From IMG/VR virus record IMGVR_UViG_3300037193_002055, positions 1-28,251 of that record: DNA of 28,251 nucleotides; one strand, written 5' to 3'. A program made the translations under genes and the position numbers. Positions 6,640-20,615 of this stretch are shown here, one piece after another. The notes under the pieces are model-generated. The model was not told the origin of the DNA. It made no database searches and worked only from the letters and a program-made list of their open reading frames with translations. How positions within the stretch are numbered: position 1 is the first letter of the stretch; each line of letters starts with the position of its first letter. Source of the DNA: a virus.

Positions 6640-7527
6640 TCAGCCGGCCAGCCGAGCGGCCAGCTCGTCGGCGGCCTCGTCCGCGACCGCCTCCGGTAGC
6701 TCGGCCCGCAGCGCCGCCAGGCGCTCGTCGACCCCGGCGAGGATCGCGGCCGTGTCGACCGAGCCGCCGCCGGCCTCGACCGCCCGGGCCAGGCTGGCGA
6801 CGACCGCGGTCAGCGCGGCCAACTCCGCCCGGAGCGCGGCCACCTGGCCGACGATCCACACCGGGGCGCCGCCCTTGTCCGTCCCGCCCGGGACCGTCCG
6901 GGCGCCGCCGTGGATCAGGGCGTGTCCGGCCTGGTACGCCACGGTGAGTGCCCCGGCCTGCCGGGGTTCCAGCTCCACCGCCATGTCCTCCACCTTTCCG
7001 GCCAGGTACGCACCCACCCGGGCGCGGAACTGGCCCATGTCGAACGTCGGGTCGGTCTTCCGGCCCGGGGTGTGCTCCTTGTGCCCGACCAGCCGGCCCG
7101 AGCTCCAGCCGAGCCGGCGGCAGATCGCCGCCCAGCCGCGGGCGTACGCCTCGTACTGGACGGCCGGCCACGGTTCGGAGACGTTGTCGTTGCACGCCTC
7201 GATGCCGAGGCAGCGCTGGTTGCCGTAGCCGGCGAACGGCGTGCCGTCGTACCCGGCCAGCGTGGTGTTGCAGCGGCCCGACGCGAGGACGTGCCAGGTG
7301 CCGTCGCGGGTCACGGTCGCGTTGGCGATCGGCCCCTCCAGGTCCGATCGCCCATCCCGGACGATCGCGACCTGCGTCGCGTCCGGCTGAGTCCGCGGGG
7401 CGGCGGTGGCGTGGACGATGCCGCACTGCGGCTCCCACGGCTCCCAGCCGCGGGTCTGCCAGCCGGCATGCTCGACCACCGCGCAGCCGGCCGCGCGGAG
7501 AACGTCGGCGAGCCAGAGGACGCGCAT
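6640..7527 (-). CDS. Endolysin, N-acetylmuramoyl-L-alanine amidase (LysA-like)
   Basis: This 295-residue enzyme would cleave the bond between muramic acid and the peptide stem. Residues ~1-172 match the Amidase_2/PGRP fold of actinophage lysins. Landmarks are GIVHATA at 36-42, GRSDLEGPIAN at 59-69, RDGTWHVLASGR at 74-85, LGIEACND at 107-114, GHKEH at 148-152 and KTDPTFDM at 157-164. Likely zinc ligands are H39, H149 and D159. Typical amidases have HHT where this has HAT, and a histidine after GRxN where this has threonine. The C-terminal ~120 residues are Ala/Glu-rich and probably coiled coil, with no recognised wall-binding repeat. The gene lies just downstream of the tail fibre genes and upstream of the membrane lysis proteins. 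Confidence 0.9.
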   Translation of the reverse strand: MRVLWLADVLRAAGCAVVEHAGWQTRGWEPWEPQCGIVHATAAPRTQPDATQVAIVRDGRSDLEGPIANATVTRDGTWHVLASGRCNTTLAGYDGTPFAGYGNQRCLGIEACNDNVSEPWPAVQYEAYARGWAAICRRLGWSSGRLVGHKEHTPGRKTDPTFDMGQFRARVGAYLAGKVEDMAVELEPRQAGALTVAYQAGHALIHGGARTVPGGTDKGGAPVWIVGQVAALRAELAALTAVVASLARAVEAGGGSVDTAAILAGVDERLAALRAELPEAVADEAADELAARLAG

Positions 7528-16310: not shown

Positions 16311-16701
16311 CGCCGGGGTCCAGCACGTTCTCGGCGACCTCGACGAGCGCCCGGACGAACCGCGGTTCCTCGGCAGCCAGGGCCGGCATCCCGGCCGGGA
16401 TCGGCGCGTTCTTGACCGTGCCGAACTCCAGGATGTTGCCGAGCGCACCCTGACGGCGCTGCTTGTCCGCGCCGATCTCCGCGCACACCTCGGCGGCCGA
16501 GGAGTCCACGTCGTACGAAATGGCCCGCGGGACAGCCGGCGCGTGCGCCAGGCCGGACCAGCGACGGGCCCAGTCCTTCTTGATGTTCAGCGCGCCACGG
16601 CGCACCACGGCGTCGGCGCCCTTCGACAGCCGACGCTCGACCCGGTTCATGGCGTGGATCAGCTCGTCCAGTCCAGTCACGGTCAGCTCGAACTCGGCCA
16701 T
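16303..16701 (-). CDS. HK97 gp10-like neck protein
   Basis: This 132-residue protein starts at the ATG overlapping the upstream stop (TGATG). Residues 1-45 form a helical start (FELTVTGLDELIHAMNRVERRL), typical of the HK97 gp10-like family. The conserved ILEFGTVKNAPIPAGMPALAAEEPRFVRAL block at ~93-122 contains the EFGT motif and the proline-rich segment seen in that family. Members join the connector complex to the tail. Gene order (stopper, this protein, terminator, tail tube) is standard. Confidence 0.85.
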   Translation of the reverse strand: MAEFELTVTGLDELIHAMNRVERRLSKGADAVVRRGALNIKKDWARRWSGLAHAPAVPRAISYDVDSSAAEVCAEIGADKQRRQGALGNILEFGTVKNAPIPAGMPALAAEEPRFVRALVEVAENVLDPGGV

Positions 16702-17096
16702 CAGGTGACCTCCTCGACCTGGATCCGCCGGGCGGTGGCGTGCGTCTTGTGGTGCAGGTCGCGGATGCGGAACTCGCGGTCGACCAGGTCGGCGTCGTGG
16801 ACGCAGGTGGTGATGGTCACCAGGTCCCCGCGCTCCAGGCCCTCGGTGCCGACGACCGGCAGCTGGACCTCCAGTCGCAGCAGCACCGGCTCGACCTCGC
16901 CGGCCTCGACCCGGGCGCCCTGGGCGAGCGCCTGCTGGACCCGGCACTGTCCGCTGTAGACGGTCTCGTATTGCGGGTAGGTGTGGCCGTCGAGCGGCGA
17001 CGTGCTGGTGCTGACTTGGTGGCGGATCGTGCAGGTATCCACCATCAGCGCCTGGGCGGCCGAGCGGCCGCGGGCGAGGACGGAAGCGGCGGACAT
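16701..17096 (-). CDS. Head-tail stopper-like protein
   Basis: This 131-residue protein has its ATG at 17096, 5 nt after GAGGAGG; an upstream in-frame GTG overlaps that site. It has an N-terminal helix, then a beta-barrel-like region with MVDTCTIRHQV, YETVYSGQCRVQQ, VQLPVVGTEGLERGDLVTITT, and EFRIRDLHHKTHATARRIQVEEV. The layout fits the phage head-tail stopper/joining family (DUF6093-like in actinophages). It would close the connector after DNA packaging. The family name is from memory of the pattern, so the exact assignment is moderate. Confidence 0.72.
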   Translation of the reverse strand: MSAASVLARGRSAAQALMVDTCTIRHQVSTSTSPLDGHTYPQYETVYSGQCRVQQALAQGARVEAGEVEPVLLRLEVQLPVVGTEGLERGDLVTITTCVHDADLVDREFRIRDLHHKTHATARRIQVEEVT

Positions 17097-17112
17097 GGCC
17101 ACCTCCTCGTCG

Positions 17113-18738
17113 TCAGGGTCGCAGGACGGTCCCGGTGTAGGGCCTCGTAATCCGCCCGGTATCCGGGCGACCGACGGTGCCGGTGTTGGGCCTCGGAATG
17201 ACGCCGCCGGTGGACACGGTCACGGCGCCGATGCTCGCGACGGCGGTGACCGTCTCGGCGACGACCGTGGCCCCGGTCGGAACCACGACAGTGGCGGCCG
17301 GTACCGCGGCCACAGCCACAACAGAGGTGGCCGTGAAGGTGGCACTACCGCTGGCAGACGCCGCGCCGACGGCGCTCGTCGCGGTGACCGGGCCGGCAGA
17401 GACCAGTGAGCCGGTCGATAGGACCGGGAGCGGGACGGATGCCACGACTGCTGCCGTGGCCGGCGTCGCCCTGGAGCCGGCCGAGACAGTTGGCGTGGGG
17501 ACGGCGACCGTGGCGCTGACGGACGCTGGGGCAACAGATGCCGAGCCGGAGGCCGTCGGCGACGGGACCGCCGCGGTGGTGGCTACCGTGGCGGCTGCGA
17601 CGTTCGCGGCGCCACCCGCCGATACGGCAGGAACTGGGACCGCCGCTATGGCTGCGACCAGGCCAGGCGCCAGCGTGGACCCGGTGGATGGAGTACCGCC
17701 TGGAACAGCCGCAGTCGCGGCGACCGCAGCCGGCCCGGCCGTAGAACCGGTTGCGACCGACGGCGACAGGACCCCTGCGACTGCCGCAACGGCGGCGGGC
17801 GCGATCTGCGCCGACGACGTGGGGACGGTCGCGGGGATAGCCGAAACCGCAGTGACGGTGGACGGGGCGATGGTCGAGCCGGTCGACAGGGCCGGTGCTG
17901 GCGTTGCCGCGACTGCGGCCGCGACGGCTGGCGTGGGGCGCGAGCCGGTCGACAAGGCGGGTGCCGGGACCGTCGCAACACCAGCGACCGTCGCTGGAGT
18001 GACCGTGGCGCCGCCGCTCGGCGTGGGCGACGGTACCGTCGCAGCCGCAGCGACAACTCCGGGCGTGACGGTCGCCCCGCTGCTGCCCGCGGTACCGCGA
18101 ATCTCGACGGCGACGATCGCATACTTCTGGCCACTCGGCGCCGAGAGTCCGGTGGTCTTCGATCCTGCGGCACCCGCGTCGGACCAGTACGCCGAGTAGA
18201 CGGCGTAGTTGGCGCTGTTACGGAAGTACAGCCTCTCCAGGCTGTTGCCGGCGGTCGGAGTGACGCCGTTGACCGTCCGCCAGGTGCGGGACGCCCCGTC
18301 GCTGGCGTTCCAGTCCGCGTTGCCGACGACGATCGCCGAGTTGTCGTGGGCGGTCGTCAGTGCCAGCGACGGGGCCCCCGACGAGACGTTCGTCTTCGCG
18401 CTGTTGCCGACGCCATCGGAGCCGCGGTACTGGTACACCGTGATGCCATACTTCAGGCCGCCAGTCGAGGTGACCGACACGTCGAACGTGGCCGAACTGT
18501 CGGCGGTGGCGGTCCAGACGTAGGCGGTGCTGTAGTTGGACACCACGACGCTCTGGCGCAGGGTGTAGGTCAGGCTCCCGCCGGTCGGCGTTGACAGGGT
18601 GCAGGAGGAATCCTCCGTCATCCCGACAACGACGAGGACATCGCCGACCTGCGTGGTGACGGAAGCCGTCTTGGGGCTGGTATTGGTGTCCCAGCTGGCG
18701 CCCTCGACCTCGGTGACGAACGTGGGCGGCGTGGCCAT
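17113..18738 (-). CDS. Fibre-like protein with thirteen 22-residue repeats
   Basis: This 541-residue protein appears to be a virion appendage. Residues ~1-215 form a compact beta-rich domain (Ser/Thr/Tyr/Trp-rich, with segments such as VGDVLVVVGMT, LKYGITVYQYRGSDG and KYAIVAVEIRG). From 221 to 510 there are thirteen tandem units, each 22 residues except one of 24 and a 2-residue gap before the last. The consensus is roughly GatvtPatVaavAaVPaPtvSt. The C-terminus (515-541) has short RPxTG-based repeats. Low complexity is almost entirely Ala/Val/Thr/Pro/Ser/Gly. It lies between the head-tail adaptor and stopper genes, where a head-neck fibre or whisker would fit. Receptor binding by the first domain is possible. 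Homology unknown. Confidence 0.72.
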   Translation of the reverse strand: MATPPTFVTEVEGASWDTNTSPKTASVTTQVGDVLVVVGMTEDSSCTLSTPTGGSLTYTLRQSVVVSNYSTAYVWTATADSSATFDVSVTSTGGLKYGITVYQYRGSDGVGNSAKTNVSSGAPSLALTTAHDNSAIVVGNADWNASDGASRTWRTVNGVTPTAGNSLERLYFRNSANYAVYSAYWSDAGAAGSKTTGLSAPSGQKYAIVAVEIRGTAGSSGATVTPGVVAAAATVPSPTPSGGATVTPATVAGVATVPAPALSTGSRPTPAVAAAVAATPAPALSTGSTIAPSTVTAVSAIPATVPTSSAQIAPAAVAAVAGVLSPSVATGSTAGPAAVAATAAVPGGTPSTGSTLAPGLVAAIAAVPVPAVSAGGAANVAAATVATTAAVPSPTASGSASVAPASVSATVAVPTPTVSAGSRATPATAAVVASVPLPVLSTGSLVSAGPVTATSAVGAASASGSATFTATSVVAVAAVPAATVVVPTGATVVAETVTAVASIGAVTVSTGGVIPRPNTGTVGRPDTGRITRPYTGTVLRP

Positions 18739-18761: not shown

Positions 18762-19058
18762 TCAGTACAGGCCGGTGCCGAGCAGCTTGCGGGTGCTGGG
18801 CCGGAAGTTCTTCGCAACCGCGAGCGCCGCCTGGCCGCGGAAGATGTCGACGAGTTGGCCCATGTCCGCGTAGGCGGTCTTCAGATCGTTGGCGTCGGCC
18901 AGCGTGAAGCCGAAGTTGTCGACGAGCTGCTGAGCGGTGTAGTCGTCGACAACCGCCTTCGCCTTGGCGATGTTATCCATCACCGCCCACAGCGAGGTCC
19001 CGATGGCGCCGGCCACGTTGTTCAGCTCGGCCTGCGTGATGGTGCGACCGATGGCCAC
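18762..19058 (-). CDS. Small helical protein of the neck-appendage block
   Basis: This 98-residue protein starts at a GTG after GGAGGG. It is mostly helical, with segments such as ITQAELNNVAGAIGTSLWAVMDNIAKAKAV, then DYTAQQLVDNFGFTLADANDLKTAYADMGQL and a basic end. It ends 24 nt before the repeat-rich fibre gene. It may be a chaperone or assembly partner for that protein, or a small virion component; there is no direct evidence. No family is recognised. Confidence 0.65.
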   Translation of the reverse strand: MAIGRTITQAELNNVAGAIGTSLWAVMDNIAKAKAVVDDYTAQQLVDNFGFTLADANDLKTAYADMGQLVDIFRGQAALAVAKNFRPSTRKLLGTGLY

Positions 19059-19071
19059 GGCGGCGTCCCTC

Positions 19072-19521
19072 CTACGGGGTCAGGTCGACGGTGAAGATGC
19101 CGCTTGCGTTCCACGTGATGGCGAAGGTGCCGTTCGACGTGGAGTAGTCGGCGCCGAAGTTCACCAGCACGATCGCGTTGTTGCCCGCCAGGGCGTCCGC
19201 GTAGAGCAGGTAGCACCGGGCGTTCGACAGGGTGGTGCTGGCCACGCTGACGTCGGTGGCATCGAAGGTCAGGGTGCCGCTGGCGCCTGTCACGGTGGTG
19301 CCGGTCAGCGCCACGCCGCCGGCGGGCCAGTTGGTGCCGGTGACTTCGTTGGCGTTGTACGGTGCCGCGCCGTACGCAGTGTCGTTCGTGAAGTCGGGGG
19401 TGATGCTGTTGCTGAACAGGGCGCCCTTGTGGGTCTCCAGGTCCAGGTCCAGCGCGAGCTGGGTGGTGTCCAGGACGTCCACGAACGTCGCGACATACAG
19501 CCCAGAGGCGGTGACGGCCAT
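19072..19521 (-). CDS. Beta-rich structural protein
   Basis: This 149-residue protein starts at an ATG 8 nt after GGGAG and ends with TAG. It is rich in Gly, Thr, Asn and aromatic residues, with a strand-turn composition (GTNWPAGGVALTGTTVTGASGTLTFDATD at ~61-89) and few charged residues. This resembles small virion surface proteins such as decoration or fibre-base proteins. It belongs to the 3-kb block inserted between the adaptor and stopper genes. Function is inferred from composition and place only. Confidence 0.65.
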   Translation of the reverse strand: MAVTASGLYVATFVDVLDTTQLALDLDLETHKGALFSNSITPDFTNDTAYGAAPYNANEVTGTNWPAGGVALTGTTVTGASGTLTFDATDVSVASTTLSNARCYLLYADALAGNNAIVLVNFGADYSTSNGTFAITWNASGIFTVDLTP

Positions 19522-19524
19522 GGA

Positions 19525-19758
19525 TCAGCTCCCGTTCTCGTTCTGCCAGCGGAAGTAGAACTCGCTCGGTGCACCGAGCGTGCCGGCGTCGAGTGCCTCG
19601 GCCTCAGCCTGCGGACCGCCGCGGGCGACCCAGCGGGCGTACCGCAGCTCCTCGGCAGCGCTCCGGTGGGCGGCCTTGTCCTCCAAGGAGCCGGTCTCCC
19701 GGTAGGTCTCCTTGGCGGCCATCGCGTCGTAGAGGGCCGCGTCGACCTCGTCGGTCAT
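19525..19758 (-). CDS. Small charged protein, unknown
   Basis: This 77-residue protein has AAGGAG before its ATG, and the start overlaps the upstream stop (ATGA). It is helical and charged (YDAMAAKETYRETGSLEDKAAH, then AAEELRYARWVARGGPQAEAEAL). The C-terminal part is aromatic (EFYFRWQNENGS). It is adjacent to and probably co-translated with its neighbours. No domain is recognised. Confidence 0.6.
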   Translation of the reverse strand: MTDEVDAALYDAMAAKETYRETGSLEDKAAHRSAAEELRYARWVARGGPQAEAEALDAGTLGAPSEFYFRWQNENGS

Positions 19759-19982
19759 CGGGTCTCCTTGGTGATTGGGGCGGCCTTCACCGTGAGGTGT
19801 GGCGCCCGGATGTGGACGTCCTGCCGATCGCCCTTGGCGTGCTCGGTGACGGTGTTGCCCAGCTCGTCGGTGGTGGCCTTGTACCGCGCGCCGTCCGGGC
19901 GACGACCCTCCACCACCGTGTCGCGGGTGCGGCGCCCGACGCTGATCGAGCGCATCTTCTCCAGGTCGATCGGCGTGCCCAT
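19755..19982 (-). CDS. Small basic protein, unknown
   Basis: This 75-residue protein is basic with predicted beta structure (VEGRRPDGARYKATTDELGNTVTEHAKGDRQDVHIRAPHL). The start ATG at 19982 follows GGAGAGG. It follows the head-tail adaptor gene with a 9-nt gap. Its size and place would suit a small connector or virion component. No family is recognised. Confidence 0.6.
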   Translation of the reverse strand: MGTPIDLEKMRSISVGRRTRDTVVEGRRPDGARYKATTDELGNTVTEHAKGDRQDVHIRAPHLTVKAAPITKETR

Positions 19983-19991
19983 CGCCTCTCC

Positions 19992-20615
19992 TCAGACTCG
20001 CTGGTCGTAGGCCAACGGTGCGCCGCCGGCCACGGTCAGCCGCACCGATCCCGGCGGTAGGCCGTACTGAGCGCGCAACGCACCTCGAAGGAACGGCGAC
20101 GCCTCCATCCGGGCATGCATCGCCTCGAACGCCACCGAGTAGTCGTCGATCTGCTCGCGGACGGCGCCGGATGGGTTGCTGTACGCGCCCATCGCCAGGC
20201 CGAGCACGGCAGAGCGGGCGAGCTGGAGCTTCTGGTGGCCGGCCGGGTACCCGTGGGTGTAGGCCACCGTCACGGTGGATGGCTGATCGGGATAGGCGGT
20301 CAGGGTCGACCGCCAGCCCAGCGCGCGCCACAGCCGGGCCCGGGCGAGTTGGGCCGAGTAGTCGGTCACCGCGGTCGCGCCGATCATCGCCGACGACACC
20401 GCAGTGACCGGGCGCTCCGGCAACGGCAGGTACGGCCCGCCGTCGTAGCCGTCGAGGTACAGCGTCACCGTCTCGGTCACCTGGACGATGCGCTGGCCGA
20501 CGATCGCCTGGACCACCGCGGTCGCGCACTCCAGTAGGAGGTTGGCCGTCGAGGCGTCCAGGTCGGATTGCAGCGCGGAGGCGAGGTCTGAGGGCGTCGC
20601 CAGTTGGTCGGCCAT
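19992..20615 (-). CDS. Head-tail adaptor (connector) protein
   Basis: This 207-residue protein has an N-terminal helical part (MADQLATPSDLASALQSDLDASTANLLLECATAVVQAIVGQRI) typical of gp6-like/gp15-like adaptor proteins. A beta strand region with Pro/Gly turns follows (YLDGYDGGPYLPLPERPVTAVSS and STVTVAYTHGYPAGH), then a further helix. The first motif, starting with a PSDL segment, is a hallmark of head-tail adaptors. Position after the capsid and decoration genes agrees. It forms the ring under the portal. Confidence 0.8.
   Translation of the reverse strand: MADQLATPSDLASALQSDLDASTANLLLECATAVVQAIVGQRIVQVTETVTLYLDGYDGGPYLPLPERPVTAVSSAMIGATAVTDYSAQLARARLWRALGWRSTLTAYPDQPSTVTVAYTHGYPAGHQKLQLARSAVLGLAMGAYSNPSGAVREQIDDYSVAFEAMHARMEASPFLRGALRAQYGLPPGSVRLTVAGGAPLAYDQRV

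Follow-up and report, generated by a model that had tools for sequence, protein, structure and literature searches.

A candidate arm-plus-fibre virion appendage with a 22-residue repeat shaft, encoded between the adaptor and stopper genes of a siphovirus-type genome

What is the role of a large, strictly repetitive protein whose gene lies between those for a head-tail adaptor and a head-to-tail stopper? The question is raised by a 541-aa protein, hereafter the focal protein, encoded in the 28-kb virus record IMGVR_UViG_3300037193_002055, the whole of which (28,251 nt) was analysed and is referred to as the window. Its siphovirus-type structural block occupies the minus strand and runs from terminase, portal, protease, scaffold, capsid and adaptor through a 75-aa gene, an arm gene, a 98-aa gene and the focal gene to a DUF6093 stopper, tail tube and tape measure (Table 1). 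Behind the capsid gene lies a small decoration-like gene, and positions 6640-7527 encode an N-acetylmuramoyl-L-alanine amidase (PF01510), the probable endolysin.

The placement between adaptor and stopper made in an initial annotation of this locus was borne out by family matches on both sides (phrog_442 upstream, DUF6093 downstream); left unmentioned there were the arm gene, the 98-aa gene and probably the 75-aa gene, which also lie between adaptor and focal gene. Relatives of the DUF6093 gene in Arthrobacter phages are annotated as stopper. Nothing separates the adaptor from the stopper gene in Arthrobacter phage EvePickles, Brevibacterium phage AGM1 or one viral contig (L004), and since these stopper relatives lack the intervening genes, the latter represent an accessory element inserted into the neck block. 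Among bacterial genomes, the window's arm was found in one alone, that of the actinomycete Nonomuraea typhae (77% arm identity), where the same cassette includes a fibre of 22-residue period; together with the high GC content and the DUF6093 relatives, this points to an actinobacterial host. An apparently identical 813-aa fibre is encoded in a viral contig (L034) and in the N. typhae genome (L061).

Table 1 Coordinates of the focal gene, its parts and its neighbours within the window
Feature	Position	Strand	Basis
Head-tail adaptor	19992..20615	(-)	phrog_442, E=6e-21
75-aa protein	19755..19982	(-)	conserved beside arm gene in relatives
Arm protein, 149 aa, phrog_644 family	19072..19521	(-)	phrog_644, E=5e-11
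98-aa protein between arm and fibre	18762..19058	(-)	without family match
Focal (candidate fibre) gene, 541 aa	17113..18738	(-)	ATG at 18738, stop at 17113-17115
Predicted N-terminal cap domain, residues 1-218, all-beta sandwich	18085..18738	(-)	AF2 model, homologues and BFVD fold matches
Thirteen 22-residue repeats, residues 221-510	17209..18078	(-)	autocorrelation and unit profile
C-terminal tail with three RPxTG motifs, residues 514-541	17116..17199	(-)	sequence
Probable head-to-tail stopper, DUF6093	16701..17102	(-)	PF19586, E=4e-31

BLOSUM-based autocorrelation over residues 219-512 of the focal protein revealed peaks at lags 22, 44 and 66 (z of 10.1, 9.2 and 10.9 relative to shuffles). 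An independent unit profile returned 13 units, as opposed to 0.2 expected from shuffles, with spacings of exactly 22 residues in 10 of 12 cases. The array consists of Ala, Val, Thr, Ser, Pro and Gly, its 294 residues including 26 glycines and 33 prolines, the latter at two to three per 22 residues. The regular array, its composition and the RPxTG motifs behind it were thereby confirmed as previously described. At the DNA level, the units share a mean identity of 50% (maximum 65%), and Tandem Repeats Finder detected no tandem repeat over the array in the window's DNA. An assembly artefact, named at the outset as grounds for abandoning the fibre reading, was rejected on these two results, which likewise argue against recent slippage or duplication; judged by its sequence, the array is a real and old repeat at the protein level. 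GC3 coding pattern is weak over the gene, which a GC3 filter did not pick out, because the repeats are rich in Ala and Pro.

The protein closes with three RPxTG motifs (RPNTG-TVG-RPDTG-RIT-RPYTG). Sortase anchoring through an LPxTG-like motif was considered and rejected, as the last of them is followed by no more than TVLRP before the stop codon, with no hydrophobic segment and no charged tail. The focal protein matched no family in Pfam, NCBIfam or PHROGs, no phage by tblastn (full length or N-domain) and no solved PDB chain by sequence, and a literature search for a 22-residue repeat in phages returned no match.

One 22-residue consensus, G[AS]T[VA][TA]PA[AVT][VI]xA[TVA][AT][AST][VLI]PAPT[VL]S[AT], is common to 13 proteins including the window's, of which the 12 others provide independent support since the profile seed came from the window. 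Hydrophobic positions within the unit (4, 9, 15 and 20) follow an 11-residue half period. Unit numbers range from 5 (in locus L027) over 9-14, 21 and 23 to 27 (in L037), in line with the suggestion that repeat number varies between relatives. Nine relatives searched against PHROGs gave no match except for the L037 protein, in which residues 303-495, inside the array, match the uncharacterised phrog_3329; four were searched against NCBIfam without a match. The fibres at L027:5150-6187 and L035:9391-12048 end in a zinc-ribbon-like C-x2-C...C-x-FDGW motif, and the C-termini of the L002 and L037 proteins are short W/P/G-rich repeats.

An AlphaFold2 model based on a three-sequence alignment predicts 16 strands in the N-domain, with pLDDT of about 70-84 across most of residues 1-150, in keeping with the folded N-terminal domain proposed initially. 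The repeats show no structure in this full-length model (pLDDT ~24). When five units were modelled from a 17-row alignment of in-phase repeat blocks, mean pLDDT rose to ~51 and short strands recurred around unit positions 9-14; no PDB match was listed for it. Monomer prediction, one of the checks suggested for this protein, hence supports a beta-rich N-domain and leaves the shaft without a confident fold; the beta-solenoid considered initially was not among the confident predictions. No helix was predicted for the repeats in either model, and a T4 fibritin-type whisker, that is, a segmented alpha-helical coiled coil, was discarded on this ground and on that of the proline content. An oligomeric shaft appears likeliest.

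By fold, the N-domain resembles many predicted phage proteins in BFVD, several of them named minor tail protein. Among these matches is a 332-aa protein of phage GodonK that has the same length as GodonK gp96, which is encoded near an arm gene and carries 24-residue repeats. Comparison with the PDB by Foldseek gave no significant match (best E=0.05), the best VIA match to the PDB (Z 7.1, rmsd 3.1 over 110 residues) falls within the usual background, and a genome scan using the N-domain returned no match.

How cap and repeat are combined differs between loci. L002 and L007 encode the window's cap (54-55% identity) joined to 20-residue repeats of another sequence, and L035 has it as an internal domain (36%) together with the window-type repeat. 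Conversely, the window-type repeat occurs with another cap family in L030 and L033, and with a third in L044 and L037. As caps and repeats are each shared separately, the two recombine independently. The L002:926-5940 stretch, which lies just before the terminase gene, combines the cap homologue with a second repeat protein, of 18-residue period and containing two sandwich-like domains, and with a weakly GDSL-lipase-like protein; no arm gene was found on the stretches of L002 that were read. In tail-tip versions (L018:5732-7231, L023:6271-7269, L024:3921-4883) the repeats come first and a sandwich-like domain last, the reverse of the window type, and the free end of the repeats carries short W/P/G-rich motifs in several cases of both domain orders.

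The best functional clue to the focal fibre is the arm gene. An 18-member phrog_644 alignment that includes the window's arm matches the Bxb1 'Tail wing arm, gp31' (PDB 9d93; E=1.2e-8), the only solved protein hit by the family profile. This homology to a solved appendage and the minor-tail-protein fold of the N-domain both support the initial view of the focal protein as a fibre-like virion part. Scanning with the window's arm identified 34 further viral contigs, which collapsed into 28 non-redundant groups at 95% arm identity; a close arm homologue was also found in one Nonomuraea prophage. In 16 of the 28 groups, a periodic ORF (z>=5 for the dominant period) began no more than 1.5 kb downstream of the arm, with periods of 18-24 residues: 22 in 14 groups, 24 in one and 18 in one. 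The remaining 12 had no such ORF, in some because the contig ended. A strong 18-25-residue period marked 11 of 49 genes within 1.2 kb of an arm, compared with 5 of 150 genes farther off (Fisher p=1e-4). In this comparison the loci are not wholly independent of one another and the gene boundaries are approximate; L002, the carrier of the cap homologue, contributes three of the five distant genes. By tblastn, matches to the 75-aa protein (38-69%) immediately precede the arm gene at many of the 34 loci and occur in the Nonomuraea prophage as well, and a 104-aa ORF fills the slot of the 98-aa gene in L035.

Proteins of 22-24-residue period are also encoded near more remote members of phrog_644, in phages of Gordonia, Rhodococcus, Mycobacterium, Caulobacter and Pseudomonas. 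Mycobacterium phage Onyinye has two arm-family genes (L019:448-888 and L019:4983-5417), each near a protein of this kind, and Pseudomonas phage F116 encodes, near its arm homologue, a 987-aa protein (gene 51; L020:6717-9680) of 22-residue period and quite different sequence. In Caulobacter phage phiCbK (gp242; L017:5492-10390), where the arm pair lies near capsid genes, and in a Brevundimonas jumbo phage (L025:5580-10393), a giant glycine-rich or lectin-like protein directly follows the arm homologue and could be a candidate head or neck filament.

Taking together the repeat family, arm homology, linkage, module shuffling and unit-number variation read from these sequences, we propose, with a probability of about 0.6, that the focal protein serves as the fibre in a modular arm-plus-fibre virion appendage. 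Given the location of its cassette between adaptor and stopper, the appendage would most likely decorate the neck of this phage. By analogy to Bxb1, the 149-aa arm protein would dock on the virion, and its linkage to the repeat gene suggests that the fibre attaches to the arm. Judged by their period and composition, the beta-prone 22-residue units with two beats (2 x 11) would form the shaft, which is probably oligomeric; the exchangeable beta-sandwich cap, given its fold and its exchange, probably binds a ligand on the host surface. Repeat number would then set fibre length, and cap exchange specificity. The original reading of the protein is thus partly supported overall, its observations on the sequence being confirmed as such. 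More tentative, and in our view rather doubtful, is the wider proposition of a widespread, horizontally mobile neck-appendage cassette that re-uses a tail-wing-arm homologue at the head-tail junction and combines a hitherto undescribed oligomeric beta fold of the shaft, of conserved 22-residue (2 x 11) period, with cap-set specificity and repeat-set length.

Where on the virion such a fibre would be mounted depends on which evidence is followed, as gene order favours the neck and homology the tail tip. The fibre might be a tail-tip (baseplate) wing fibre like that of Bxb1, its genes merely inserted in the neck block, which we regard as possible yet unlikely. In its favour, the one arm homologue whose structure is solved belongs to a tail wing, and most arm-repeat pairs examined in cultured actinophages (from Gordonia, Mycobacterium and Rhodococcus) reside among minor tail, tail-tip or lysis genes; moreover, in TP901-1 the gene for the neck protein comes behind those of the baseplate (PMC4493119), a precedent for gene position differing from virion position. 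On account of these pairs and this precedent, gene order constitutes weak evidence for a neck site. However, the cassette recurs among head-tail connector genes despite different head modules: in the window, in L007, where the pair accompanies an unrelated head module, and in L044, where it lies between capsid genes and DUF6093, in the same slot beside DUF6093 as in the window. In addition, no second arm gene was found near the window's tail-tip genes. Elsewhere, the pair precedes the tail terminator (L030) or follows the major tail protein gene (L033). Gene order makes a site on the neck, as opposed to the tail tip, plausible.

Attachment to the capsid, with the protein serving as a head fibre or decoration and not as a neck or tail part, is improbable: the arm gene does follow capsid genes in phiCbK and in podovirus ctEqG8, and the window has its decoration-like small gene behind the capsid gene, but arm homology points to a tail protein and the sequence bears no sign of capsid binding. 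Least probable is a secreted or cell-surface adhesin carried as non-virion cargo, with RPxTG as a sorting signal. The gene is accessory, being missing from stopper relatives, and Ala/Pro-rich repeats are frequent in surface proteins; against this, the ORF starts directly with a folded domain, the predicted fold of that domain resembles phage minor tail proteins, and the gene is embedded in a structural block beside an arm gene. The modular arm-plus-fibre appendage remains the reading we prefer. Through it, an arm protein whose structure is known becomes connected with a large class of repeat fibres, most of them unannotated, for which the arm gene offers a sequence handle where the fibres themselves vary too fast for similarity searches. 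The common consensus and variable copy number also render shaft length and cap specificity directly testable.

Of the known systems, the Bxb1 tail wing is matched by homology of the arm family at profile level and by gene order: arm gp31, a 63-aa gene and gp33, named 'Tail wing brush' in the PDB entry, parallel the window's succession of arm, one short gene and fibre. The Bxb1 arm gene is preceded by that of gp30, for which the annotation gives a minor tail protein and lysin activity. The Bxb1 genes follow the tail-tip genes, unlike those of the window, and the brush is glycine-rich and lacks the 22-residue repeat of the focal fibre; no sequence relation between the two was found. The brush is described as a PPII bundle (PMC13243192). 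A glycine-rich brush of the gp33 type was rejected as a model for the focal fibre in view of its glycine count and the lack of a PDB sequence match.

Vasanti gp28, GodonK gp96 and xkcd gp29 share with the focal protein repeats, here of ~24 residues, and a nearby arm gene, and the GodonK minor tail protein of gp96's length has a predicted fold matching the window's cap. They differ in the sequence of their repeats, in having the repeats first and the sandwich-like domain last, and in being encoded among tail-tip and lysis genes. Fibrous neck-attached structures, at the site proposed from its genes for the focal fibre, are known from A-1(L) gp80-82 and the TP901-1 neck passage structure (PMC10966104, PMC4493119). 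In A-1(L), separate trimeric beads are strung into chains to make the fibres, and in the TP901-1 structure the N-terminus is BppU-like and the C-terminus hydrolase-like, for neither of which the focal protein gave a Pfam or PDB sequence match. In the satellite MiniFlayer, whose fibres were seen binding the neck of its helper, the authors suggested an adsorption module formed by a tail fibre gene together with three hypothetical ones (PMC10690885). MiniFlayer gp6-gp9 resemble the cassette in that a phrog_644 gene is followed by a short gene and then by one for a long protein, all of them between the capsid and adaptor genes, and judging from gene order gp6-gp8 are probably the authors' three hypothetical genes. 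The long protein, gp8 (1376 aa), contains a lectin-like (Laminin_G) domain and repeat-like stretches; it differs from the focal fibre in that its sparse repeats are broken by large domains and score weakly for period. The arm-plus-fibre arrangement also points to a partner, open to testing, in the attachment of MiniFlayer to its helper.
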